Part shown: piece after piece, positions 45,682 to 63,644 of the stretch
How the letters are laid out: each line of letters opens with the position of its first letter
Numbering within the stretch: position 1 is the stretch's first letter
Assembly: GCA_018902385.1 (NCBI GenBank)
Contig: JABSSW010000015.1
Location: 62,001-126,000, forward strand
Source of the DNA: Physcia stellaris
Lineage: Eukaryota; Ascomycota; Lecanoromycetes; Caliciales; Physciaceae
Length of the DNA: 64,000 bases
Reading direction: 5' to 3'
Translations under genes and position numbers: made by a program
Notes under the pieces: model-generated
What the model saw: the letters and a program-made list of their open reading frames with translations, nothing else
Databases searched by the model: none
What the model was told of the DNA's origin: nothing

Positions 45682-46176
45682 GGCAGACTGTTCCACTCCA
45701 GCAGCAAGACGAAATTTGATGCAGGAGAGCAAGCTTGCCCTAGAGCGGCTGAAGTATTGGAATTGGTGCAGGTTGAAAAGGAATCTGTGAAGCCTCCACA
45801 GATTGAGGATCTATGAGAATCTACAAGTAGTGGGAGGTATTGCTCATGTTGGTGGTGGAAATCATTAATGTAAAAGATTCAGCAAGTGAGATCAAGACCG
45901 TCCAGAACAAGGAATTGGCCGATCCTCGATGAAACAAGCGAGCCAGGGTTGATGGGAAGATGATGTCGAATCACCCTCTCTTCACATCTACTTTTCCTGA
46001 CTCATTCGAAAAGCATTACAACCATTCACATGGATTTTCACGTGTTTGAACCACTGTTAACTTATGTACCCCGAACCAACATGCAAACTTCAACCTGCTT
46101 CCCATCACTGCTTCCCGTTGTCTCAGCTATTCAGACCCCTGGCTAGTTCGGCCAAGCCTTCATTTTCCGCCAGAGG

Positions 46177-46200
46177 GTCTGAGCCAAATAACGGGTAAAT
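46177..46200 (+). repeat. Left inverted terminal repeat of the AT-rich block
   Basis: Begins GTCTGAGCC and ends CGGGTAAAT. It pairs with 57867-57890 read in reverse complement; mismatches at positions 7, 11, 13 and 15 of 24. Confidence 0.6.
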
Positions 46201-46595
46201 TTTGTTTTGAATTTTCTCGACTGCAATATTATTCAAAAAAGAATTCAACTAGTCAAAATTTCGTGTATTTTTTGAAAGATTGGACGAAATTTTGAAATAA
46301 CGCAATATCGATTTTGGCAAATAGGGTTAACATCGCACAATTTTTGAAATGAAGTCATCCGATCTTTTGACATGGGATAAGCAATATCGTGCTTTCAGAT
46401 CCATCGTCAAAACGTACTCTAACAACTCAAACTTTTGATGTATGCATTGTTACTTTTGTACAATTTATGTGCGAAGTTATGAAAAGATTATACCATGATG
46501 TTGTTGATTTTCACACGCTTAATGACCAAGTTTTATGACTATCCCGATATGACAAAAACAGTCTGGGTAATAACTTCGTCCCAGGTATTCGACAA

Positions 46596-46926
46596 TATCA
46601 TACTATTTCCATCTCTTTCAATATAGGGTTCAATCGACTGCTGTTTTCGGACATTCTTTTAATCAATTGTACAGTTCATCGCATTGAATCCCAGAAGAAA
46701 GCGAAGAAATATCATTGACTTAAGCGTTGACGAAGTAGTGTAAACAAATTGTTATTTCATCTCGTGTATTAAACACTATCATACTACTACTACCTCTTTC
46801 AATATAAAGTTCAATTAATTGCTATTATTGAAAATGTTTCTATTCAATTGTACAATTTATTTTATTGAATTTCAAAACGAAGAGAAAAACGACATCGATT
46901 TAGATGCTGATAAAATAATGAAAACA
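46596..46926 (+). repeat. Diverged tandem pair, offset about 181 bases
   Basis: Copies near 46596-46746 and 46777-46926 share CTTTCAATATA, CAATTGTACA and ATTGAAT segments in the same spacing. Where they differ the second copy mostly has T or A for C or G, e.g. TATAGGG versus TATAAAG. A one-base gap lies toward the end. Confidence 0.6.
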
Positions 46927-47406
46927 TGACATACAATTGAAATTTTGATAATCAATTTCACAAAGATGATCATAATTTCATGTATGTACATTTTTCATGT
47001 TTATGTTTATATCGATCATCAACTGTGCGTTCGGAAAATTCGATTTTTTTTTGTTGACGTTGACATTGACGAGAAGTTTTGTGACTCAGATTTCAAAAGT
47101 TTTTCATTTGAATTTTTTCATTGTATTTGTTCACGTTGACATCAAAATTCGCAACGTCGTTTTTGAGCAGATTTGCGGCGACGTAAGTCGAAAATTCACG
47201 TTTTTTCATATAACGCATGTCGCGTTTTAACAGATTTGCAATCATTGTTTGCAGATTTTCGATTATCGGCTTGACTGAATGATTGTTTCGATAATGACGA
47301 TGCAGAAAATCATGAATTTTCAGGCGAAATTGCAAATTATATGATATGATTAACGCAAGATTTTTAAGCAAATCGTCGAAATTTTTGATGAAATTTCGTC
47401 GAGTTG

Positions 47407-49568
47407 TCAGGTTTTTTTGAGAATTTCATTGAGATATTTCAGTAGTCGATTCGTTTCAAAGCATTTGTCATTTGAATTTTGCAGATTGACAAAATTGTTG
47501 ATCAACATTGTTTTTTGTAATATCACGTTCGATGTCTTTGAACAATACAAATGTATAAATCGAATTAGTTTCGTCGCGTAATTGAAAGTATTTTTTTTCG
47601 AAACTTGAAAGAAAACGCAAGTATTTCGTAAAACATGTTTTAGCAATCCAATATCACCGTATCTAATGGAGTGTCGCAGCTGAAAATATGATTCCATATG
47701 TCTAATAAAACGAAGATGATTTTCGAACACTTCGTTTTCGACCACGGGAACAGACTGAGCTTGGGAATTGAAGGAATGAACAGTGGCAATCAATTCATCC
47801 ACGAGACTTTTATAGTTCGAAAGTTTTAGCCGCTTGAGCCATTCCTCGAACTTGGAAGCAGACAGTATGGGGGCGAATTTCCATTGTCGATTGGAAGCAG
47901 ACCGTATGGGGGCAAGTTTCTCTCGTCGATTGTTGCACAAATGCATCGTTACAGCGGAAACTCTCTCTTGATAGGAATGAACCAAGAGCGCTTCCAGTTT
48001 AGTAAAGTCCTGACCGGTGTTTACGTTACTGCGTTTTCAAGCATCAGCAACAAATTGCAATGTGAATTCATTTGTCGATTTAAAATCATTTCAATGATTT
48101 TTATGAATCAATTTCAGAAAATTCAAGCGCAAATGTCAAAGATTCAAATTCGAAATCATTCATTTTCGAAAATCATATGATCTTTCGGCGTCACGCCGAC
48201 AGCTTTGCACTGCCAATATTCGCAATATGGTCTTCAAATCACCATAATAGGGCAGGAGAATATCGTCCCATATTGGATCGTTGGGATCCTTCTTCAACTG
48301 CCGTTCTTCAATGTCTTCGTGGATCAATATATTGCCTTCCGTCGTGCTTTCGTCTTGCTGCACGGGAGCTAAAGGATGCGATTTGGTTCTACTATATGCA
48401 ATTCGTTTGATTTCTGGCATCTTCATCAATTTCTTACATTCGTCGAGTCTTTTCTCCGAAAAGCCCTTGGGAAATGTTGTTTTCAGACTTTCATGAACGA
48501 AGTGCCGACGACTCTGAACAATGATAAGTAAACAATGACGAAAATCAAATACTGCGAGACAAACTTACTTGATGAAATAACTTTTTCGTGTCTGGATTGA
48601 CCACAACAATGTCCTGCACTCGTACTTTGTGATTCGGTCGCCACATGTCTTGTCGTAAACCTCCATCTGGAATCATAATGGCTTGAAATTGAAGAACGGT
48701 GGTGATACCGCGCTGAGTCTTTCGACTCCCTAATCTTTCGGCGGATTTGTGATCTACAAAGTCGAAATTGTCATAAGATTTCGCTTGTTTTTCACTAGAG
48801 GTGTTACGACAAATTTCATTTTCTTTCAATACGGTCAAATGTTTGATCAAATTTTGCGTCGTATTATAGCAAACACAAATGTTGAGAATAAACAATATGT
48901 CAATTATTTTTTTTTGATTTTTGAATTCATCAAATATAACGTCAGCGTTTTGATCAAGTCATTACATCGAGAATTTTGCATAGAGAACAGCAACATCGAC
49001 ATTCACATGATTTGTTTGATGCTTTCATGAGTATGAGTTGTGAGAACGGATGATTCGATGATTTAGCAACGGAATTCAAGAATTTCATCAAAAAAATGTT
49101 GTATTGCGTACGACATCAACAAGAAATTTCAGTCTATCGATGAAGTTCAGAATTTGAATATTGAAATCGAAAAATTTTCAACGAAAACGTTCACTGTTCG
49201 TCAGTTCGGTCAATTCTTTTCGGATTTGTCGTTGATATTTTGTTTTTCGTCGATTTTTAACATGTTGTTTCAATTTTGCATTTCAAGTCGAAATAAAGAA
49301 TTGTTTTTTTTTTTTTCGTTCAGCATTTTTGATATGCGAATTTTCGAAATTGTAACCAGTATCTGCGATATCGTTTTTCTGAATGATGTTTCGCCAGGGC
49401 ACGCAGCAGATGTTGCATGTCTAGATTTTTCTCCTCCATCATGTCCACGACGGACTGCAACTTGGATTCCTGTGTAGTGGGTGGCTTACGATCCGACTTT
49501 CGGGGACGTTTGCGCTTGGGTTGAGAAGGAGTTCGAGGGTCAATCGGTGTCTGAATACTTGAATCCAT
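47407..49568 (-). pseudogene. DUF6589-like gene relic
   Basis: Segments in order on the minus strand but not one frame. 49568-49320 encodes a basic start ('PSQPKRKRPRKSDRKP'). 48895-48545 contains 'YDNFDFVDHKSAERLGSRKT' and 'IPDGGLRQDMW'. 48429-48160 contains 'TTEGNILIHED' and 'LPYYGDLKTILRI'. 47985-47407 contains 'LRHSIRYGDIGLLKHVL' and ends 'CFETNRLLKYLNEILK'. This order and these motifs match my memory of DUF6589 proteins (YDNF..., YGD.KT..., AIR.GDIGRLEH.L..., E..N..LK). DUF6589 genes occur in many copies in some fungal genomes; whether they are transposases is not established to my knowledge. Introns could account for some frame changes. Confidence 0.5.
47852..47929 (-). repeat. 39-base tandem duplication within the DUF6589 relic
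   Basis: Copies 47852-47890 and 47891-47929 keep a GGGGG run and code for the related 13-residue units around 'APIRSAS' and 'APILSAS'. It is a G+C-richer island in AT-rich surroundings, so it has escaped most of the mutation. Confidence 0.75.
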
Positions 49569-49980
49569 GTTAAAGGCTTGAGCTTGCGCAATAAAGAGTT
49601 GTAATGATGAAAGCGAAATGTCTTAGAGGTCGTAGACGTGATGAAAACAAGACGAAAAGTTGCGATGTGAGGGAAGTCCGATTTCGTCTTAGCGTGAAAT
49701 CTGATATCAGACCAAATCCATGAACCTGATCCCCAGAACGCGAGCTTGTTCGCATACAACAAGCTGTTATTTGATCGGTTGACAGTCCTCTAATGATGTT
49801 GACCTTAATCTAGACTAATTGTACAATGACGACTATGTTGTCAGTAAAGCCACTTGGCGTTGTTCCGTATGAAGGTGGCGATTTGAAATATCTGATATTG
49901 TTTAATTTGAGAGAAAGAATGCTCATATAGGCACATGTCAAAGCCTACATCATCCAATACTCTTTCTGGTCCCCAAAACA

Positions 49981-50310
49981 CGAATCAAAATAAATTAATA
50001 GTTCAGTCCACGATGTCACTTGCGCTTTTTAACGTTAAGACAAAAATTGTACAAATGCAATGAATCAGACATATTTATAGCGAGTTTTTATATCACGTAT
50101 GTTAAATGATATGAGTAAACTCGTATGATTTTTACGAAGAACGAAAATTGTTGAAATCAAGATGTTGTTGCTTTTCCGAAACGTGAATCGGAATAAATTA
50201 ATTATTAAATTCACGATGTCATTTGAACTGCTTGATGCTAATGAAAGAATTGTACAAATGCAATGTATTAAACATATTTACAATAAATTTTTATATCATG
50301 TATGTTAAGT
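49981..50310 (+). repeat. Diverged tandem pair, offset 203 bases
   Basis: Copies near 49981-50107 and 50184-50310. Shared anchors at constant offset are AATAAATTA, CACGATGTCA, TTGTACAAATGCAATG and the closing TATCA.GTATGTTAA. Confidence 0.7.
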
Positions 50311-53300
50311 TATACGAGCAAGCGTTTAGCGATTTGCATAAAATTCTGACTGTATTTTTGCGTGCGCATAAATTTTCATTTCAATATCATTTTTGAAATT
50401 TTCATTCATCGATTTCTGCTCGTCTGATCGATGTTTGAGCGCTTTCAATGTTTGTTTTCTCGTTCGACTTGTCAATGACTCGTATTTTTGATGAAGAATG
50501 AATAAGAACAACGTGTTCGTATTGACGAATGAAAAAAAATAGAATCGTGACAAAATAAGAACGTTGTGATCGGAAAAATTGAAGAAAAAGAGAATAAGCT
50601 GAAAGAAACGATGAATAAGAAAAATAAAAAGACGAAAAAGATGTATCGACAAACTTCTTGAATTTTGTTGAAGAGAAAAAGAGAAAAAAAAAAAAAAAAA
50701 AAAAAAATGAAAAAAAAGAAACGCGTAGAACTTTTTGGATGACGCATCGTGTTTATATATGCAAATAAGAAATCAGTATTTTAATGAAGCGAATCTGACT
50801 GAATGATTTAGCGATTAGAACTGTAAGTAAGCATTTTTCATTCATGATCGTTTCATTCATAGTTGCGAATTCGAGTCGCGTGTGCAATGATGAGTATTTT
50901 CAGAATTTATTTCTGTGATAATTTCGAGAATTCTGATTCAATGAGGCAATATTCATTTCTGAGCACATGACAGAATTTCGAAATAATTGAATTGATAACT
51001 TGAAATTCCGATTAACATGTGGAATATCACAGAAAACATCATTTTTGATTGTTGTGACAATGTTGAAAATCAGAGTTTCGACGCGCAGAGTTCGGAATCG
51101 AAAGAAAAGATACTCGGGAATATTTGATTGAATAACTGTGAATGCGAAGAAATAAAGAATGAAAGCGAAAGAAAAAAATAATGATAAAATAAATCTGATA
51201 TGATTCGAGATCGAGATCGAGATCGAGAATCATGACAGAATAAAAATGAGTTGAATGAAAGATGAGAAGAATCGAGACGAAAAATCATGAAAAAATAAGA
51301 ACGATGTGATCGTATGAGCGAAGAATTTGAAAAAGAAAAAGCTGAAAAAGAAAAAGTTGAAAGAAAAGAAATTGAAAAAGAAAAATTGAAGAAAAAAAGT
51401 TGAAGAAGAAGAAGTTGAAGAAGAAAAATAGATTTCGCAAAAGAAAAAATCTTGTACAATTGTTAATCGATTTTTCGATGATTGAAATCTGATATCACTC
51501 ATTTCGTCGTGCTGAAAGAAAGAATTCGTTTTATCGTGACGAAAAATCTTGATCACTTTTCGACGTATGTGAAATTTACGACGTGATGAAAATTTCAGAA
51601 ACGCGTTGAATCGTGTCAGAAACACGTTTCTGAAACTCAGAATTTCGTATTACAGTTCATCGTCGTGCTGATGAAGAAGACATCGTGTAGAGAAAAATGA
51701 AAATGATGAAAAAAAATTAAAAAATAAAAAGAAGACGAGAAGTTGAGCGACGAAACGAAATCAATTTCGTCATATTTTCAATCTCAATATCACAATTTCA
51801 CGATCGTGAAACATTCTTGCGCATAATGAGAACAGTTGTATGAATCACTAAATCACTCATTCATTTAGACGATTAATCGGATGAAACTTTGAAACAAGAT
51901 TTTCGATTTGTGTACGATTAAGAGTCGTAAATGGTCGATCAATTCGACGCCGTTTTATATATTTTATTTTCAACAGTAATCGAGCAACAAGAATATGTTT
52001 TTGTTATCACATTTAGAATTTTGTATATTTGCGAAGAAAAATCATTTGATTTCATATTTCGTATCATGATTAACGTTATCAACAAAACGTCGATTTAATG
52101 CATGCATTTTTGTTTTTGTACAATTTAAGTTTTTCAATATTTAAGCAATAGACTTGTTCGTATATTTTTGTATTTTTCGAGATTTTTGCATTTCTGACGT
52201 ATAAACAAGAACAAGCAGTTTACAATTTCGTGTACAACGACAATTTACGGAAACGAATTTTCAACATCGAAACATACATATGAGCGATAAATAAAATAAA
52301 AATGAAAAGAAAATTTGAAAATGTATTGTTTCGATTTTATTTTTTCAGGTTTCGCGTTTCATTTTCATCGTTTGATTGCTGAAAAGACTTGATATGAATT
52401 ACAAAACGATGTTTTACAATCGCGAGAAAAGCATGATTGTTTCAAAAAAATTCAAAAAAATTCATAATCAAACAACATTGCAAAAATCTTTTTGCAATTT
52501 CGTATATAACGGAAAATGCAGTGAGATCGACACACAACATGATTATTTTCGAAACAAAAATTCAGTTGTGTTCAGTTTCATTTCAAATTACAGTTTCATT
52601 TCATTATTTCTCGTTTTCGTCGTTTGATTCGACATTTCTCATTTGAATGTTCGGAAGCGATGCTTTCGTCAACGTTTCATACATTTTTTTGTCTGATTCT
52701 TTCGGTCAACACAGTTTTCAGCATTTTTTTCCGTTTTCATTCAAAAACGTCTGGTATTTTTTCTTATAAATCAAAGAAGTGAGTTTTTTTCAGATTTTTT
52801 TAAAAACACATTTACAATTCTTTTTGCGACGCGAAAGCGACGCGATCTTGAAATTCAGATTGTAAATGTTTTGTAAAGCGAAAGTTCGAAATTTCTGTTT
52901 TCTCAATTGATGCGAAAACAACGATTTGAGATTCGATAGAATCGAATCGTTCGATTTCGAAATTTTCAAATTCGAAATCGTCGAAATTGTCGTCGTGCTC
53001 AAAATGAGTTTTTGTGTTCATATTCATAAATTCGTTTTCATTTTGAGACAGAAATAATGACTCATTTTTGTCGACATTGAAGTCGATTTTTTGCAATCGC
53101 TCGCGATTTGTCGTAAATTGATTGATGAACAGTTTTTGACGATTTGATTGTCGTTGCGAAAAACACGTTTCGGAATTCGACAATGTTGTTTTCACAACAC
53201 TGGTACGAGTTCGCGTGCTTCTGTCATGCACAGAAGAATTTTTAATTTTGAAAAAAATCGAAAGCATCATTTTTGCGATCGCAAACGATATTTGAATGTC

Positions 53301-54059
53301 AATTGAATTTAAAATCGAATCAAATCAAATACAAATTTGAGATTGAAGAGTTGCATATTCAACGAACACTGGCTTTCTCTATGTATGTACGTGCAGTTGC
53401 CGCACGTCTCAAGCTGATTTCTGATTTGACGACATAGGCGAAAAATCAACTGGATTTGATTTTGTTCAGTTTGAGCGCAACGAATGCACGTTTGAGTTGC
53501 ATTTCGATCAATCGTTTAAAAACTTGTTAAACGATCGGTTTTTTATCAAAAAAAGACATGTTTATTTGAATAATCAAAACGTCGAATTGCTGCGATTGAT
53601 GAATGTTGTCGAAATCGATGCGATTGATGAAATGCAGAAAAACGATGTGTCTGTCGAAAGCATTCGTAAATTGCGATCGTTTCATTGATGTTATGCGATT
53701 TTTGAATTGAAATATCATCATCGTCAATCAAATTATCATGATGATTTCAAAATTCAATTCACGACGTCGAAATCAACGTCGATGACATCGTCATCGAATA
53801 CGTCTGAATACACATTAGAAATTGCATATAGTTTCGAATGTCAATGATACATTTACAAATAATCAGAAAGTTCGCGTTGCGCGACATGATTGTGATGCTA
53901 AAACGAAAAAAAAAAAAAAAAAAAAAATCGAAATTCAAATAAATAAAAATGATTTTGCAAACGACGTTAATGATGAATATGTGTTGATGAATGATTTTCA
54001 TATCAAAACAATAAAATCATCGAAGTCACAAAAACAAACAATATCGTCATACATTCGTA

Positions 54060-54760
54060 ATTTCGAAAAATAATAATAAGCATTATCTGATGAAATAGAC
54101 AGATTTATATTCTTGTACAATTAATTTGTATTGACAAATAATCTTATTTATATCGAATTTTTTATCATTTGATTTGAATATGTCACGCGAAAACGAATAT
54201 TTTCGACGACGACGATGTTCGAAATGTCAATATTTAAAATTACGCAAAATTAAAAATCAATTTTTCGAATTTCGTCAAAAAAACAACGATATTAACACAA
54301 TCAAATCGTTTCGAATAAAAATAACAAACATTATTTGAATTAATGAACGATTGTGTGCGTTTGTACAATTCATTTGTATCGACAAATAATCGTATGTTTG
54401 AAAAATTGATAACAATCGATTCACTTTCGTCGTGCGAGATCGAATATTCTCAACGAAAGCGATATTCAAAGAGACAGTGACTAATATTTGATAAAAACTC
54501 AAAATGTTTAATTTTCAGGCATCAATACGATGTCAGACAATATCGCCGAAATCACATCGTTTCGTATAAAGACAACAAACACAATTCGATCGAGTAAACG
54601 GTTTTGTGCTTTTGTACAATTCATTTTTGCTGACAGATAATCTTATTTCAAGAACATTGTTTATTTTTGATTATTTTCGTTGAACGATAACGAACGATCT
54701 CACGAATATCAGAAATTGAATAGTTGCGAAAGATGATAAATTCACGATTTCGAACGAGAA
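54060..54760 (+). repeat. Three diverged tandem units of about 250 bases
   Basis: TTGTACAATT followed by a related 'GACA.ATAATC' segment recurs at 54113, 54361 and 54612, spaced 248 and 251 bases apart. The second and third units also share the preceding 65 bases (ATCGTTTCG.ATAAA... AACAAACA...). Confidence 0.65.
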
Positions 54761-56035
54761 CATGATCACAATACAAAAGCAACATGACTTTTAAGTTCGA
54801 TGAAAATTGCTTTTAATTTATTTCGAATCTGTTCGTGAACGAGATTTTCTATTTACATTATCGCTTATAGCAGATAAGGAAAATCGAGTCGATGCAAATT
54901 GCGAAAATTGCGATTGAAACATCGACTGTTGACTTTCATCTTCTTTTATCGTGAAAAGTGAAAACGAAGAAAAATCTGTTGATTGCGAAATTTTTTGCGA
55001 TTGTGATTTTGATTTCATCGTCAACGAAACGTTAAACGCTGAAGCGACTTTTTTTTTGCGTTTTTTGATATTTTTTTCCGATCGACACATTTTTGCTAAT
55101 CAATCAAGTTTTTCGTTGCTCATTATGTTCTCGAATAGATTTTTCAATTTCAGTTTTTTTTTTCATTCGGCAATTTTGTTTTTTTGCGAATTTTCGCGTC
55201 AAGATCAGCTCGTCATGTTATTCAAGTTTCGTTGTCTGATTTTTTTTTGATTTCGAAGACTGATACACATATTCACAATTTCATTTTGATACAATTCTTT
55301 ATTGGATCAATTTTTGCAATATCGCAACAGAAAGATTTCGATCTGTCAAAAATTCGACGAATTGAATGATAATTTTCAAAAATCGATCAGAAAATATGAT
55401 CGATCCGAACATGAAAATATGAGAATTCGCATATATTTCTCGAGTTTTTTCATTTTTCATAAAGTCAATTTCTTGATAAAATACGCATGAAAAACAATGT
55501 CGAATTTCTTGAACTCGAAATAAGATCGATGTTTCGAAATATGATCCGGAATGCAAAATGAACAGCACATCGCGAATTTGATTAGTTTTTTTCTTTTCAT
55601 ATTCGACGTAAGTTTCGTCGTCGTATCGCTTTAATTCGCACAATTTATTGCAGAAAGAATTGATTAAATCGATGTATGTCGATATTTGCTTTTGACGTTG
55701 TTGCGCATTGCGAGCAGATTTCGTCGCTTTGTTCATTGATTTGATTCGGAAATCAGTAACGTTGCTTTGATCGAATTCATATTCGCTATCGTTTTGCTCG
55801 AATATGTAAGTTTTCAACAATGAATTTCGATTTTTTTTATTTTTTCTGATTTTCGATAAATCGGTTTTGTCATAAGCTCATCGAGAAATCAACAGATAAC
55901 AGAATTCAGAAGAAATTTGACGAGCGTTTCGGTTTTTTCTTTGAGTCAAAACGTGTTTGCTTTTAGAAATTATTCAATTACAAATGATTTTGATATCTGG
56001 ATTATTCGCGTTCAATTCATATGTTTCGTTAACGA

Positions 56036-57102
56036 TCAAAAATCGAATTGATGAACTAAGTTCAGAAAAATTCGCTTGATTCGGTTTTTCGAACGTATCA
56101 GCAATTCTTTTTCGTCGTCAATCATGTCCGCATGATACGCTGCTATCCAACGTTTGGCGACGGGAGGGTAATTCCATTCGGGAAACCAGACGTCGGTTGC
56201 AAGTTGAACGAACTTCTGTATTTCCGATTTGCTGTCGACATAGAAAACCGTCTTGGGAATGCTATAAGGATCAGTCGCATGGATCGGAAAGAAGCGACGA
56301 AGATCTTCGAAATTATTTTGATTGCCTTCGATAAATATAATATGCATACTGATCTCCGGTCTATCGATAGATGTTTTGATTATTCGGCAATTTTCGAAGT
56401 TAGCGTTTCTTTTTACGACGGTCAGCGTATTTTTATTCAGAATAACGGAAATGTCAAAATATACACATTCGAAAAAATCGACTTTTGAGCACATGAAGCT
56501 CGCTGAATTCTGAGCGAAAATTTCGTCAATCGTCAATCAAATGCAATTCATTTACGATCACAATTATCAAACGTTTTCGAAATTTCGGTTTTTTGCAAAT
56601 GTTTTCGTTGAATTCGGTCGAGAATATGTATTCGAAATTGATGAACACTGTTCATTGTCAGCAGGAGTTTTGACAATCGATTGAAAGTTTCGTATCATGA
56701 ATATACATTTCGGCAGCAATTTTTTCACGATTCGATTTGAATTTATGATTTTTATCATAGACGAAAGATCGAGTTCGAGAAAATTTATTGATTTTTTCGT
56801 ATTGTTGTTTCGCAATGAATTTCAGGAACACAATCATCAACACGATGTTCGTATTCCGAAAATGTAGCAGAATAAAACATATTGAAAATCAAATTTTTGT
56901 CGAAGTTGATTTTCGTTATCAAAATCAAAGATTTTTTGAGACACGCAACGGCATGTATGATTTTTATTTGTTTTTTTTTTTTTTTTTTGAAATCGGATAT
57001 TTCAGAAATACGAATAGCAATTTGATTTAAGATTATGTTTTCGAGTTTCGTATTATTTGAAATCGAAAAGATTTTTGTTGAGAAATTGTGTTCGTTCGTC
57101 AA
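56036..57102 (-). pseudogene. RecQ-like DNA helicase relic
   Basis: On the minus strand, 57102-56785 has a worn P-loop region ('ITKINFDKNLIFNMF', compare TGFGKSLIF). 56843-56567 has 'AKQQYEKINKF' and a decayed 'KIAAEMYIH' (compare 'eeQaekI' and the sPE motif region), in different frames. 56536-56036 is one open frame of 166 codons with 'IDRPEISMHIIFIEG', 'IPKTVFYVDSKSEIQKFV' and 'RWIAAYHADMIDDEKELL', the spacing seen at the start of the second RecA-like domain of fungal RecQ-type helicases. Such helicase genes are common in fungal subtelomeres and repeats. Motif I is destroyed, so it is not active. Confidence 0.6.
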
Positions 57103-57500
57103 AGATTTCGATCATTTTGACTCATTATCATAAACATTCTCGTCTGGTTTTTGTACATGAGAAATCGGAATTCACAGATCGCGATCGTGCGTATCGTTTG
57201 AAAATGTTGTTTTCGCGTTGAATCTTTGTCAATGAATTTCATTGACTGAATGTAAAAATTCGAGAATTATGAAATGAACTGATCGTTTCAACAAACATGT
57301 CGATGTTTATTGTGATATCGTAAAATCGTTTAAAAAATTGAAACGCGAAAGTCATGATATATAGCAAAAAAATCGATAATAGTATGCGTAAAATGAAATT
57401 TTCTGATCAATTGCGCATTCGAGAATTGCTTTGAAATGATGATTTTGAGATTGAATAAAATTTGTTTTCGCTTTGTTTGCGATACGTCAGTTTCAATCAT

Positions 57501-57850
57501 CACGTTGTTTTAAAGAATTATTTTTGTGAAATTTTGTAGTTCGATATCGAAATAATGATTTTCTCGTTTTCAATTAATTGTATTCGATGTGAGTTGTGCA
57601 AGAAAAAGTTTCGAAAAGTGTTGAATTTGATGATTTATGATCTGAAAAATGTGACGAAATATGCCTGTCGCGTTGTCTCCCCGAATTTCGCAATTGAATT
57701 GAACAACAAACACAATGTATTATGAAGTTATTTTTGTGGGACGTTGTAGCCCGATATCGAAATAGCGGTTTCCTCGTCTTCAATTAACTGTATTCGGCTT
57801 GGGGTGTGGAATAATGAACTTCGCAAAGTGCTGAATTTGGGTGGTGACGC
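57501..57850 (+). repeat. Ungapped duplicate pair at the right edge, offset 210 bases
   Basis: 57501-57640 and 57711-57850 align without gaps. In the 110-base core (57521-57630) 84 bases match. Of 26 differences, 18 are T or A in the inner copy where the outer copy has C or G. Confidence 0.85.
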
Positions 57851-57866
57851 GAAGGTAAATACGGTT

Positions 57867-57890
57867 ATTTACCCGATTTCTGGTTCAGAC
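57867..57890 (-). repeat. Right inverted terminal repeat of the AT-rich block
   Basis: Reverse complement begins GTCTGAACC and ends CGGGTAAAT. Mate of 46177-46200. It lies 16 bases outside the duplicate pair. Confidence 0.6.
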
Positions 57891-58364
57891 GTGTAGGTAA
57901 GAAGCCCGAGCCCTGTGACGCTTCGGCTACACGGCCCGAGACAAGCTTCCCGCCCGTTGCGGGAATTCGACGCGTGAGCTGATTGTCTGACACGTGAAAA
58001 TCTTTGTCATTAGGTCCCTCGGTTCTTGGTATCTTGGCACCTTGGCATCTTGGCATTCATGACATTCAATGTCTCACTGAAGTTCACCTTGATAGCTCTG
58101 GTATAACTCCTTTAAACCTATCCTTTCTTTGCCCTCACCTCTTTCACACTTCAACCGTTGCTCCGCCCCCTCCACCTTGATGTCCGAAATGGATACTACG
58201 CATCGACGACTACTCCAGTAGACTATCCATTTGAAAGCCGCCTAAGGAACGCCTAAGGTTTATGCTGGCAACGAAGCTAGCCGAACTCAAGATTTGGATG
58301 ATATTCTAATTCAGATGTTCTCTCGTTTTGGCTGAAGAATGATACTATAGACGTGGATAGCAAG
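57891..58364. other. Leader region of DOA10
   Basis: 474 bases of normal composition between the AT-rich block and the DOA10 start. It contains a short triplicated CTTGG motif (about 58026-58050) and C/T-rich stretches. No gene seen. Confidence 0.45.
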
Positions 58365-61300
58365 ATGGAGAACACCGGAGGCGAGCCCGAGGTGGCAGCA
58401 AAGCCAGATGTCATGAACGACCCTACTTTCGACACAAACTCAAGGAACAAGGGGAAAGCTATGGAGGACTCCGACACGTGTAGGATATGTCGCGGCGAAG
58501 GGTCCAAAGAAGAGCCCTTGTTCTATCCCTGCAAGTGCAGCGGCAGCATCAAATTTGTTCACCAGAACTGCCTAATGGAATGGTTATCACATTCGCAAAA
58601 GAAGCACTGCGAACTATGCAAAACGCCCTTTCGGTTTACCAAGCTGTACAGTCCACATATGCCAAACTCGGTGCCTCTGCTCGTCTTCATACGGCAAGCT
58701 ATTGTTCATGCCTATAAAAGTATTCTATCATGGTGGCGATTACAGTTGGTGCTCTTCGTTTGGGGAGCATGTTTACCGTATGTCATGCGGACTATATGGA
58801 GGGCTCTCTTCTGGTTTGGCGATGGAGGATGGGTCACATGGCAAGAGATGGAACGCCGTGCTACAGCAACTGCACAGCAGTATGTGGATAATCTTGCGGC
58901 GACAGGCACGACACCAGCAAATCTGAACCACTTTACGTCAAGGGATGCTGCGGCTTCGGCAGTGGTGTCCCACTTCAACAATGCAGTGCCGTCGATCCTT
59001 CAACCCATCTCCTCCACCTCCAGTTTCTTCAGTGGAGGGCCGTTGCTTTTCAGACTTGGTAGAAAGCTGATGCGAACTATGGTAAGAAAAGTCTCGAATG
59101 AGACTATTCATGCCGCACCAGCCCGAGTCTCGACAAATTTTAGTACTGGTGTGAGGCTAGAGAATCACTCCTCTTTACTTTCCAACGTCAGCTTCCTGAA
59201 ATCCTTAACACGATTTCCTAAGTTTAATGGAATTCTCATCGATATGATCGAGGGGCAAATCATCACGTTGTCGATCGTGGTAGCTTTTATACTGATCTTC
59301 CTCATTCGTGAATGGGTCGTGCAGCAGCAACCAGCTATGGCTGTCGCAGCCAACGCCGCGCCCCAGGAGGCGCAAGCAGATGCTGTGGAAGAAGATAATA
59401 CTGCCAACAACGCACAGGGGCTTGAGGACGTGGAGCAGACTCTGCTACGGGCGGAGCTAGAATCAAGCTCCTCAAATGATGATACAAACCTAACATCAAC
59501 GGTGGAATTAGGAGTACATCAAAACCCTGCTACAGTGAAACCGAGCATTGAAGATAGGTTGAAATGGCTAGATGATCATGATTTCCCGCGTGACCTGCTG
59601 GACCTCCCAGGCACGTCCAGCGATCATGCCGACGATCTAGAAGGTCAAATGAGAGATGAAGCTACGACAGGCGAGGACCCCAAAGCATATGAAACAGAAG
59701 GCCCTGGAACCTCTTCTATCGAGTCACGACCCAGCATGCCTACAAGAGAAGCTCTCGGTAGAGCTGCAGAGGTTCGTCGTACGTTGGAGGGAATTTCTGC
59801 AGCCGGAGGACAGAAAGACAGGCATTCCAATATGAAAGTCTTCACGGATATCTGGATACGTGCTGGAAACAGACCGGGTGAGGTGCTCCGAATCATTGAT
59901 CGAGAAGGCCGAAACGAAGAACTTAGCTGGATAGTAGCGGCAATGAAAAGATTGGAGCATAGTTCCGCATCCAACGATCGCGAGAATGCACCTCCAGCGG
60001 ACCCTGAGCAGCTGGTTCCCGAGGAGAACAGGTCATCTCTAAACAGCGTTGGAGAAGTACGCATTCCAACATCGAATTCATCCTCGCCCAAGTTATCCGC
60101 GACATGGGACGAGGAACAAGCAAGTCGGATCTCTCCAGTGGATGATATAGGTACTATACCACAGTCTTCTGGTGCCGAGAGAGGCCAGCTGAAGACCGGC
60201 GCAGTGCTTTCTCCATGTAGTGATAACCTAAATCGGAACGAAGAAGACGTCTCCTTCGGTCTGCGGGATATCAGTAATCAACAATTTGATGGCTCAGCAG
60301 ATTACGCAGTGTCTCACAAAGATGATTCTGACAGCTCTTTCGTATTACTTTCAAACAGCTCACAGCAGGAACTGCCTGCGAGCAATCAGCCCGAGGATAA
60401 CCCGTTCGCACCAAGTTTGGAAGACTATCCACAGCCCAACGTACCAACAGCGATAGATGACGCCCCTACTGGTGATATACTAAGGCATCTCATCGACCAA
60501 GAACAAAACTTGGCTGGACTGGTAGACGAGCGTAATAATCTTATGCGCGAAGGCAACGACCTTCCAGCCACAGATGGACAGCTTGGCTTGCCTAATCTCG
60601 TCGCTGATCCAGTGATTGATAGATCCAGCCCGCCTCGCGGCTATCTCGATCGCATCATGGACTGGATTTGGGGCACACCGTCAACAACGGCAAGTCCTAC
60701 CGATGTTCAACTGGCAGATGAGGAACATGTTGTCGCTCAGGTAGAAGAGGAAGCTCCTTTCGTTCCTATCGCTCATGGGAGACCTGTCTTTGAGCAGGAT
60801 GGGGCCCCAGGTCAGGATCCAGCACCAGTGCCAGCCCCTCAGGATAATGCTGTTGCAGCTGCTGCCGCTGAAGCCGGACTTGATGCGAATGGTGCTGAAG
60901 CGGTGGATGATGCAGAGGACCTAGAGGGCATAATGGAGCTCGTGGGACTACAAGGGCCAATGTTTGGTTTGATCCAGAACGCCATTTTCTGCGCGGTGAT
61001 AGTCGCAGTCACCGTAGCGCTAGGTATCTGGATTCCCTACATTTCTGGAAAGGTATTTCTGATATTTCTGGCCAACCCTGTCTCACTGATGTTCAAAATG
61101 CCTCTTCGCTGGGCTTCAACAACTGCAGACACGTTAGTGGACATCTGTATCTTTAGTGCCGGATGCAGCTTTTACTGGACGGATACGGTCATCAGCTTCG
61201 TCTGTCGCCCAGTGACACGGCTCATTCCCCAATTAGCAATCATCACTGAGCAGTCAGCCCTTACTGAAGCAGCCAAAAGTTATGCCGAGAGCGCACTAGA

Positions 61301-63644
61301 CAGGCTGGCAAGGACTCTGGTCGCCACAAGTGGTAGCTTTCTAGAATCAGACGTCCCAACCTTCTCGGTGGTTGCACACGAATCCCTGCTAGCAATCAAG
61401 CAAGGCCTATCCTCATCTCTCATGACTTCATTCGAGATCTTGGCTGGCTTGAGCAGTATATTGTCAAAACACCAGGTCATTGAGCATGCTACGTCTTTGG
61501 CACATCGTGCCGGCGATATTTTTACCGCCTGGAAAGGCTCTATCGTCAATGGGATCACGGGCTGGAAGTTCTCCACACAATCGATCTCCCTCAACAAGGT
61601 TCTTCAGGTCAATCTTAACATACCTCAGCGAACAGCTCCTCTAGACTTTAATCTAGCCTATTGGAATTCGAAAGATCGAGTTCTAGCGATCTTGCTCGGC
61701 TATACCCTTTTCGCCTTGATAGGAGTTGCATATCTCAGGATCAGGGCGTCCTTGCGCGGCAAGAATGCAGCTGGCCGAGTTGAAGGCAGTATTGCTGATG
61801 TCCTCTACCAAGCCGGCGGCGTCTTGAAAGTAATACTCATCATAAGTATTGAGATGATTGTGTTTCCTCTTTTCTGTGGCCTGCTGCTCGACTTTGCTCT
61901 ACTGCCACTCTTTGGCGACGTCACTTTCCTGTCGCGACTCAATTTCGGCTTGGACGCTCCATGGACATCGCTGTTCATCCATTGGTTCATTGGAACATGT
62001 TACATGTTCCACTTCGCGTTGTTCGTATCCATGTGTCGCAAGCTCATGCGAACCGGCGTGCTGTACTTCATCAGGGATCCAGACGATCCAACCTTCCACC
62101 CTGTTCGGGACGTCCTGGAACGCAATCTCTTTACCCAACTTCGAAAGATCATCTTCAGCGCTGTAGTATATGGGGGTTTGGTAATGGTTTGTCTTGGTGG
62201 CGTTGTTTGGGGAGTCTACTATGCATTTGAAGGCGTTTTCCCTGTCCACTGGTCACCCAACGAGCCGGTTCTAGAGTTCCCCGTGGACTTACTCTTTTAC
62301 AACTTCCTCATGCCTGTGGCAGTGAGGTTCTTCAAGCCTTCAAATGCTTTGAACAACATGTATGGCTGGTGGTTTCGGAGGTGCGCAAGGGGACTTAGAC
62401 TATCACATTTTCTGTTTGGTGAAAAGAGGGCAGACGAAGAAGGCCATCATGTTCGACGGACCTGGCAAGACTGGCTTGATGGAAAGCTGGGCGATCCATC
62501 CAAACCAGTGACAAACATTGAACAGCGAATTATCCAGGAGAATCGCGAGGTGCCTGCTTACTTCCTTCGGGATGGTCGCTATGTCCGCGCCCCAGCATCA
62601 GATCAAGTCCGCATGCCAAAGGGTACTCATACCTTCCTCGAAGTTGACGAGTACAACAATCGGGTTGACAAGCGCGAGGACCCAGAACAGGGTACACATG
62701 GCCGTAAAAACGACCAATTCACACAAATCTATATCCCGCCCTTCTTCCGCCTTCGTATCAGTATCTTCATCTTTCTGATCTGGCTCTTCGCCGCTACCAC
62801 TGGCGTCTGCACAACCGTTCTTCCTCTCATCCTCGGCCGCCGTATCTTCGCGTACATCGCACCCTCTCACCTCCGCATGAACGATATCTATGCCTATTCA
62901 ATCGGTATCTACATTCTCGGTGGCTCACTCTACATCTGTCTATATGCCGCGAAAGCCCTCACCTACGTGCGTTCTGCCTCCCAGAGCACAAACTCTCGGA
63001 CCCGCTCCGTCTTCCGCCGAACACAAAGTCAATTGTACCGCCTTCTCCGCATTCTTTACACGTATGCATCCTTCACAGTCTTTCTTCCCGCCCTATTTGC
63101 TCTCCTCATCCAAGCTTACTTCATCGTTCCGCTACACACCTACTTTGGCACGGTCAGCGACATGCACACCATTCACATCATGCAGGACTGGACCTTAGGC
63201 GTGCTCTACATCCAAGCCATAGGCCGCTTGATCCTCTGGAACTCGCCATCTCGGCCTGCTGATGCTCTCCGAAGGATCGTGCACCATGGGTGGCTGAACC
63301 CAGACGCACGGCTCGCGACCAGGGCGTTCATTTTTCCTGCTACAATTCTCTTGGTCTTCTTGCTCGCACTTCCGCTGACATTGGGACGTATCGTCAATGC
63401 ACTTTACTTCCCGGGCGCCGAGGAGGAGGTGATGAGAACGCTGGTGTATCGCTACAGCGCCCCTGCCATTCTTGCTCTAGCGGTCACTGCTGTCGCGCTT
63501 TCGATACTGAAAGGGGCCTTTGATGCGTGGAGAGGCAGGATCAGGGATGAAGTCTATCTGATTGGAGAACGGCTACATAACTTCGGTGAGAGTCGACGGG
63601 TGAGGAAGGCAGCGAAGGGGCGCAGGGTCGATGTGAGGGCTTGA
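58365..63644 (+). CDS. SSM4: Doa10/MARCH6-type ER membrane ubiquitin ligase
   Basis: A single exon of 1759 residues from ATG 58365. The N-terminal RING-CH (C4HC3) domain begins at Cys39: 'CRICRGEG', 'CKCSGSIKFVHQNC' and 'CELC' have the exact RING-CH spacing. A first membrane pair ('LFVWGACLPYVMRTIW') comes next, then a long acidic, poorly conserved loop (about residues 330-860), the conserved central membrane domain ('LFFIHWFIGTCYMFHFALF'-type segments near 61975-62025), and several C-terminal spans. Doa10 polyubiquitinates misfolded ER, cytosolic and nuclear proteins with Ubc6/Ubc7 for proteasomal degradation (ERAD-C). It is longer than yeast Doa10 (1319 residues) mainly through the acidic loop, as in other moulds. 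It sits 475 bases from the edge of the AT-rich block. Confidence 0.95.
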   Translation: MENTGGEPEVAAKPDVMNDPTFDTNSRNKGKAMEDSDTCRICRGEGSKEEPLFYPCKCSGSIKFVHQNCLMEWLSHSQKKHCELCKTPFRFTKLYSPHMPNSVPLLVFIRQAIVHAYKSILSWWRLQLVLFVWGACLPYVMRTIWRALFWFGDGGWVTWQEMERRATATAQQYVDNLAATGTTPANLNHFTSRDAAASAVVSHFNNAVPSILQPISSTSSFFSGGPLLFRLGRKLMRTMVRKVSNETIHAAPARVSTNFSTGVRLENHSSLLSNVSFLKSLTRFPKFNGILIDMIEGQIITLSIVVAFILIFLIREWVVQQQPAMAVAANAAPQEAQADAVEEDNTANNAQGLEDVEQTLLRAELESSSSNDDTNLTSTVELGVHQNPATVKPSIEDRLKWLDDHDFPRDLLDLPGTSSDHADDLEGQMRDEATTGEDPKAYETEGPGTSSIESRPSMPTREALGRAAEVRRTLEGISAAGGQKDRHSNMKVFTDIWIRAGNRPGEVLRIIDREGRNEELSWIVAAMKRLEHSSASNDRENAPPADPEQLVPEENRSSLNSVGEVRIPTSNSSSPKLSATWDEEQASRISPVDDIGTIPQSSGAERGQLKTGAVLSPCSDNLNRNEEDVSFGLRDISNQQFDGSADYAVSHKDDSDSSFVLLSNSSQQELPASNQPEDNPFAPSLEDYPQPNVPTAIDDAPTGDILRHLIDQEQNLAGLVDERNNLMREGNDLPATDGQLGLPNLVADPVIDRSSPPRGYLDRIMDWIWGTPSTTASPTDVQLADEEHVVAQVEEEAPFVPIAHGRPVFEQDGAPGQDPAPVPAPQDNAVAAAAAEAGLDANGAEAVDDAEDLEGIMELVGLQGPMFGLIQNAIFCAVIVAVTVALGIWIPYISGKVFLIFLANPVSLMFKMPLRWASTTADTLVDICIFSAGCSFYWTDTVISFVCRPVTRLIPQLAIITEQSALTEAAKSYAESALDRLARTLVATSGSFLESDVPTFSVVAHESLLAIKQGLSSSLMTSFEILAGLSSILSKHQVIEHATSLAHRAGDIFTAWKGSIVNGITGWKFSTQSISLNKVLQVNLNIPQRTAPLDFNLAYWNSKDRVLAILLGYTLFALIGVAYLRIRASLRGKNAAGRVEGSIADVLYQAGGVLKVILIISIEMIVFPLFCGLLLDFALLPLFGDVTFLSRLNFGLDAPWTSLFIHWFIGTCYMFHFALFVSMCRKLMRTGVLYFIRDPDDPTFHPVRDVLERNLFTQLRKIIFSAVVYGGLVMVCLGGVVWGVYYAFEGVFPVHWSPNEPVLEFPVDLLFYNFLMPVAVRFFKPSNALNNMYGWWFRRCARGLRLSHFLFGEKRADEEGHHVRRTWQDWLDGKLGDPSKPVTNIEQRIIQENREVPAYFLRDGRYVRAPASDQVRMPKGTHTFLEVDEYNNRVDKREDPEQGTHGRKNDQFTQIYIPPFFRLRISIFIFLIWLFAATTGVCTTVLPLILGRRIFAYIAPSHLRMNDIYAYSIGIYILGGSLYICLYAAKALTYVRSASQSTNSRTRSVFRRTQSQLYRLLRILYTYASFTVFLPALFALLIQAYFIVPLHTYFGTVSDMHTIHIMQDWTLGVLYIQAIGRLILWNSPSRPADALRRIVHHGWLNPDARLATRAFIFPATILLVFLLALPLTLGRIVNALYFPGAEEEVMRTLVYRYSAPAILALAVTAVALSILKGAFDAWRGRIRDEVYLIGERLHNFGESRRVRKAAKGRRVDVRA

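Follow-up and report, generated by a model that had tools for sequence, protein, structure and literature searches.

The closest described counterparts of the mutation pattern that we report here are the repeat-induced point mutation (RIP) of ascomycetes and related hypermutation processes of other fungi. According to the part of PMC5496416 available to us, the order of preference in Neurospora crassa RIP is CpA>CpT>CpG>CpC, and Trichoderma reesei RIP prefers CpA and CpG about equally, followed by CpT, with CpC last. In the accessible text of a survey that tabulates ten fungal genomes (PMC4352252), the signatures named are those at CpA, CpT and CpG, and the CpT signature accompanies one at CpA in Botrytis, Sclerotinia and Magnaporthe. 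In the RIP-capable controls of another study CpT->TpT is dominant (PMC7882544, in excerpt); a CpT signature alone is therefore not new, because it is known in other fungi. In Microbotryum and other Pucciniomycotina, a RIP-like hypermutation acts in another context, CpG or TpCpG (PMC12730594 and PMC4352252, as far as their available text goes). Here, we analyze a window of 64,000 nucleotides (the whole stretch of DNA examined) from Physcia stellaris, contig JABSSW010000015.1, and an AT-rich block within it at positions 46177-57890. With a probability of roughly 0.6, we read this block as the relic of an approximately 11.7-kb terminal inverted repeat (TIR) transposon with a DUF6589 gene, inactivated by a RIP-like process acting at CpC and CpT.

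The block shares with ascomycete RIP the C->T and G->A changes on both strands, the broken transposon frames and a context that depends on the base following C; unlike RIP, it has CpC and CpT changed and CpA and CpG nearly spared. Like the CpT-type RIP of Botrytis, Sclerotinia and Magnaporthe, it has CpT->TpT as a main change, whereas theirs accompanies CpA, with CpC nowhere named in the available part of PMC4352252, and in the block CpC is changed about as much as CpT, with CpA left nearly intact. The CpG/TpCpG hypermutation of Pucciniomycotina is alike in being RIP-like in a different context, but CpG in our block stands at 1.03 of its flank frequency and the base 5' to C has no effect. A signature of CpC plus CpT that spares CpA and CpG was not found in the RIP-context literature searched, within the portions of these sources that were accessible; a Coccidioides review containing the terms “CpC dinucleotide” and “repeat-induced” (PMC9409882) could bear on the novelty of the pattern.

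C has been mutated to T in the block, and the changed context of this hypermutation is the strongest and most surprising result of our analysis, more informative than the ends of the element. The G+C content of the block is 0.329, against 0.504 and 0.509 in its flanks, which agrees with the AT-richness pointed out in the sequence-only reading, an earlier inspection of the letters by a model, in which the context-specific hypermutation behind it went unrecognized. The limits are those of the maximal-scoring segment in a likelihood scan, for which the interior of the block and the flanks served as training sets:

46187-57735, both strands: hypermutated segment with C->T at CpC and CpT, as also seen in the context fits and repeat pairs

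The left composition switch (46187) lies 10 bases from the left end of the block. The scan found no second mutated segment in 1-46186; on the right-hand side of the block it could not have distinguished an additional segment, but the 1-kb windows there have a normal appearance.

Plain dinucleotide counts relative to the flanks are 0.19 for CpC, 0.47 for CpT, 0.93 for CpA and 1.03 for CpG, and from 50 to 56 kb the observed/expected ratio of CpC is 0.09-0.21 per kb; that of CpT is low as well, and that of CpG is high, with values of up to 2.84. We simulated C->T change starting from the host flanks, the rate being left free for each base that can follow C. The best fit to the whole block was CpC 1.19, CpT 0.96, CpA 0.07 and CpG 0.02, and the divergence fell from 0.33 to 0.006: mutation of C to T in two contexts, CpC and CpT, is enough to turn the composition of the host flanks into that of the block. 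Factors for the 5' base, when freed, were 0.97-1.02, that is, without effect. As controls for the fits, the rates of simulated CpA-type RIP were recovered, and an unmutated 12-kb flank piece gave rates of at most 0.01, a control that is not fully independent because the piece belongs to the flank source. In 3/3 sub-blocks, the rates at CpY (C before a pyrimidine) were far above those at CpR (C before a purine). The CpC/CpT rates of the three were 0.64/0.75, 2.14/1.00 and 0.95/1.00; since CpC exceeds CpT in the middle sub-block only, the two are best called about equal. A CpA-only model left divergences of 0.108, 0.232 and 0.168 in the same sub-blocks, against 0.0005, 0.0008 and 0.0034 with free rates. 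Judged by the thresholds used for RIP, TpA/ApT of at least 0.89 and (CpA+TpG)/(ApC+GpT) of at most 1.03 (from the available part of PMC3828140), the block is negative on both indices, with values of 0.44 and 1.37. Strand-coordinated tracts were sought and none was found (dispersion 1.63 over 78 block windows and 4.63 over 307 left-flank windows). Islands in which CpC and CpT are better kept occur near 47.8, 48.3-48.7, 49.3-49.9 and 56.0-56.5 kb and from 57.75 kb onward.

The same context emerges from the internal repeats, which can be compared with no ancestral sequence assumed. Four tandem pairs were used, to the exclusion of a third-copy comparison and a 39-base duplicate, and C/T differences were counted wherever the following base was the same in both copies. 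The repeats concerned are the following:

46575-46926, plus strand: tandem pair near the left end (46575-46746 and 46756-46926), 70% identity
49973-50321, plus strand: tandem pair upstream of the DUF6589 relic (49973-50118 and 50176-50321), 76% identity
54030-54702, plus strand: repeat of about 250 bases in three copies, one pair of which was used in the C/T comparison
57494-57839, plus strand: tandem pair near the right end (57494-57629, mutated, and 57704-57839, far less mutated), 74% identity

Over the four pairs, C/T differences were present at 12/12 CpC, 40/51 CpT, 29/63 CpG and 17/78 CpA sites, or 52/63 CpY versus 46/141 CpR sites (Fisher p 2e-11); some of the 54-kb sites are counted twice in these figures, because that pair compares overlapping copies of the three-copy repeat. 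In the right-end pair, one copy of which is much less mutated, 13 of 16 CpY and 2 of 24 CpR sites differ.

Terminal inverted repeats are present at the limits of the element:

46177-46200, plus strand: left terminal inverted repeat, 20/24 bases shared with the right copy
57867-57890, minus strand: right terminal inverted repeat, 20/24 bases shared with the left copy

The count of 20 matching bases between the left end and the reverse complement of the right end, first given in the sequence-only reading, was confirmed. Dinucleotide shuffles of both 120-base edge windows (n=5000) never scored 20 or more and scored 19 twice. Among 3000 composite windows built from real flank and block pieces, 3 reached 20, and 1 did so with at least 8 matched G/C; in a smaller composite set with varied orientation, 3/300 reached 20. 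Gapped local alignment of the 300-base edge windows chose the same 24 bases, in register. Scanning the whole window on both strands gave no further match of at least 17/24 to either end 24-mer. We conclude that the inverted ends are probably real, because of their location as much as the quality of their match. An inverted repeat spanning the left edge, TCAGACCC (46131-46138) with GGGTCTGA (46175-46182), was spotted by eye; the left end might extend further outward, but this pair is probably due to chance.

A further feature confined to the block is a palindrome:

46456-54619, no strand assigned: ten TTGTACAA palindromes, putative protein-binding sites, from counts

There are 10 TTGTACAA sites in the block and none in the remaining window, with about 0.9 expected in the block under an order-3 model; the excess is partly explained by the tandem repeats, in which six of the ten sit. 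These sites, which could bind a protein, link the left part of the block with its middle. Because TTGTACAA contains only CpA and TpG, it would be left untouched by CpY mutation.

The gene relic recognized in the block is the following:

47404-48510, minus strand: DUF6589 gene relic, probable transposase by predicted function, matching PF20231

In the read-through frame, with stops written as X, the match to DUF6589 (PF20231) covers positions 23-369 of 410 (E 3e-39, 135.3 bits), and two open pieces each exceed the Pfam cut-off alone, which bears out the DUF6589-like relic on the minus strand proposed earlier. This gene was probably the transposase of the element. Neither DUF6589 nor DUF3716, a family to which we return below, was found in the papers covered by our literature search. 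In the DUF6589 stretch 47400-48600, TGA makes up 5/6 of the stops, compatible with CpY mutation; since TGA is also more frequent than any other stop in all three minus frames of the block (108/191, 104/157 and 112/188), this excess is uninformative, and we discounted the TGA-rich stop mix as evidence of CpY mutation. As to the affiliation of the element, AcademH DNA transposons reportedly have inverted ends and a helicase and occur in animals and fungi, and they appear to be the nearest named group with a helicase in fungi. Their target duplications are 9 or 10 bases long, according to the accessible text of PMC10045372. A 9-10-base duplication was sought in the block and not found, and for this reason we do not file the block as AcademH.

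We propose the following course of events at this locus. A large TIR DNA transposon with a DUF6589 gene would have inserted, in a single event, between two fungal genes. A host process would then have turned C to T before a pyrimidine on both strands, equivalent to G to A after a purine, nearly sparing CpA and CpG, and this mutation would have begun at the left end of the element and stopped just short of the right one. The target was presumably repeated DNA, and the mutator may have been a repeat-sensing enzyme, most likely in a pathway of cytosine methylation resembling that of the RID or DIM-2 methyltransferases. RIP contexts are described as a preference for the 3' base, and APOBEC-type deaminases read the 5' base; because the block has a 3'-base preference without a 5' effect, a methyltransferase-linked, RIP-like process is favored, and a RIP-like process with a changed context preference is the best reading of the AT-richness. 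That the block is one large TIR element, as the sequence-only reading suggested, is probable: a single element is likeliest because of the rare, edge-placed ends, the left composition switch, the one continuous mutated segment and the block-only TTGTACAA sites. More tentatively, and at somewhat less than even odds, we suggest that transposons or repeats in this fungus are targeted by a mutator restricted to C before a pyrimidine, which it turns into T. Such a mutator would disable transposons through the loss of CpC and CpT, with CpA and CpG retained, and would be nearly a mirror image of Neurospora RIP; the indices based on TpA and CpA, with which fungi are surveyed for RIP, would not register it.

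Several observations weigh against a single element inactivated in this way. No target duplication was found at the block: there is no close in-register match at 6-11 bases, and a wider search at 6-12 bases with at most one mismatch gave no in-register repeat, only off-register matches of at most 6/7. The earlier suggestion that G+C changes within about 30 bases of each end holds on the left only; the right switch (57735) lies 155 bases inside the right end. The terminal right stretch, including the right tandem copy, is far less AT-rich (G+C 0.40 versus 0.27 in the partner copy), and G+C is 0.51 at 57751-58000. Mutation strength is uneven as well, 46-50 kb and 56-58 kb being weaker than 50-56 kb. 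In two of the repeat pairs, CpG differences (7/9 and 5/5) are above the prediction of the fits; a slower CpG decay or misalignment may contribute to them. In the gapped alignment, 593/2000 control pairs scored as high as the real edges, and by this measure the ends are not exceptional; such AT-rich DNA ordinarily gives a score of this size. The risk of a chance match, raised when the ends were first noticed, is reduced by the shuffles and composites, which rarely match so well, and kept alive by the gapped control, which often does. Finally, the context pattern rests on one locus, and the ends are known from one pair within the 64-kb window.

Some of these points can be turned into other explanations. 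The block could be a composite of at least two related or nested elements, for instance one with DUF6589 between 46.2 and about 50.4 kb and a second piece on its right. Deletion or nesting would have joined them, each outer end would stem from a separate insertion, and the hypermutation would be the same. The lack of a matching target duplication and the shifts in mutation strength near 50 and 56 kb would suit this, as would the TTGTACAA-bearing tandem repeats that flank the DUF6589 relic on both sides (46.5-46.9 and 49.8-50.3 kb). On the other hand, the outer ends match one another, the block has no further copy of them inside at 17/24 or better, and TTGTACAA is present also at 51.5-54.6 kb. 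We consider a composite unlikely, although it deserves real weight. A chance match of the ends, the block then being an island of hypermutated repeats of indefinite extent, is more doubtful still. The gapped control, the missing target duplication and the right mutation limit 155 bases inside are in keeping with this, but equally good ends arose in 0/5000 shuffles and 3/3000 composites, and the left end falls 10 bases from the computed edge; we regard a chance match as improbable.

The remaining explanations concern the mutation itself. Ordinary RIP at CpA was our first expectation, being the usual cause of C->T in fungal transposon relics according to the available part of PMC2621366. It is contradicted by both indices (0.44 and 1.37) and by the fits, in which the CpA-only model fails in all three sub-blocks. 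CpA at 0.93 and CpG at 1.03 of their flank frequencies speak against ordinary RIP and against methyl-CpG decay alike, and the latter was rejected on the CpG value. Both are refuted for the block, unless its starting composition was very unlike that of the host, and we give them next to no credence. A deaminase or ultraviolet damage reading the 5' base was rejected on the 5' factors of 0.97-1.02. Alternatively, the base that changed could have been guanine, RpG becoming RpA (R, purine), for example through O6-alkyl-guanine mispairing or a guanine-directed enzyme confined to the block. CpY->TpY is the same change as RpG->RpA on the opposite strand, and a G after a purine is a hot spot of SN1 alkylating agents. 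Chemical damage, however, would not halt at the ends of an element, and no such segment is present in 1-46186, while the right flank is normal in appearance in its 1-kb windows; a guanine target is very improbable. Mutation of cytosine in a single TIR element remains the explanation that we prefer.

Besides the DUF6589 relic, the block contains three smaller open pieces:

49323-49622, minus strand: open frame (stop to stop), possible start of the DUF6589 gene, recognized by eye
53312-53515, minus strand: short cysteine-rich piece, DUF3716-like (Pfam 24.1 bits, cut-off 22)
56039-56536, minus strand: open piece with helicase-like strings, recognized by eye, identity unconfirmed

No Pfam family scored above its cut-off in 49323-49622. 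When the six read-through frames of the block were compared with Pfam, DUF6589 was found, together with DUF3716 at only 11.1 bits, below its cut-off of 22, and nothing else; the helicase families had no match in any of the six. The piece 56039-56536 and the frame following it contain strings that look like helicase motifs by eye; 56039-56536 matched no Pfam family, no PDB sequence and no fold at E 0.001. The RecQ-like helicase named in the sequence-only reading thus found no profile match in this piece or in the six frames, and its helicase identity stays a lead. Two single-sequence structure models were poor, with a mean pLDDT (predicted local distance difference test) of 36.8 for 56039-56536 and 37.7 for the other. 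Viral contigs scanned with 48163-48564 and 56039-56536 yielded no relatives. On the plus strand, 50500-51900 is rich in GAA/AAA runs, has tandem arrays at 51320-51429 and reads as a charged, coiled-coil-like sequence, in which 50491-50653 and 51284-51442 are 62% alike; the read-through plus frames, this region included, matched no Pfam family.

To the left of the insertion site lie minus-strand open frames without Pfam domains. Its right neighbor is a plus-strand gene for a MARCHF6/Doa10-type ubiquitin ligase (58353-63644, with RINGv and MARCHF6_C), the open frame of which begins 463 bases to the right of the block, with transcription directed away from it. The block may split a promoter region shared by the two sides. 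The proteins encoded in the flanks suggest that the host is a filamentous ascomycete.

The common RIP indices score a gain of TpA and a loss of CpA. Compared with the flanks, about four fifths of the CpC and half of the CpT are gone from the block, and yet it is RIP-negative on both indices; because the C->T change is almost confined to CpY, the usual tests for RIP would miss it. Should the pattern extend genome-wide, a strong RIP-like defense may be present in species listed as lacking RIP, and the sequence preference of the enzyme would be a natural experiment in how the base after C is read. As a candidate for a full-length DUF6589 element whose ends are defined, the block would in addition be of use in deciding if DUF6589 is a transposase.

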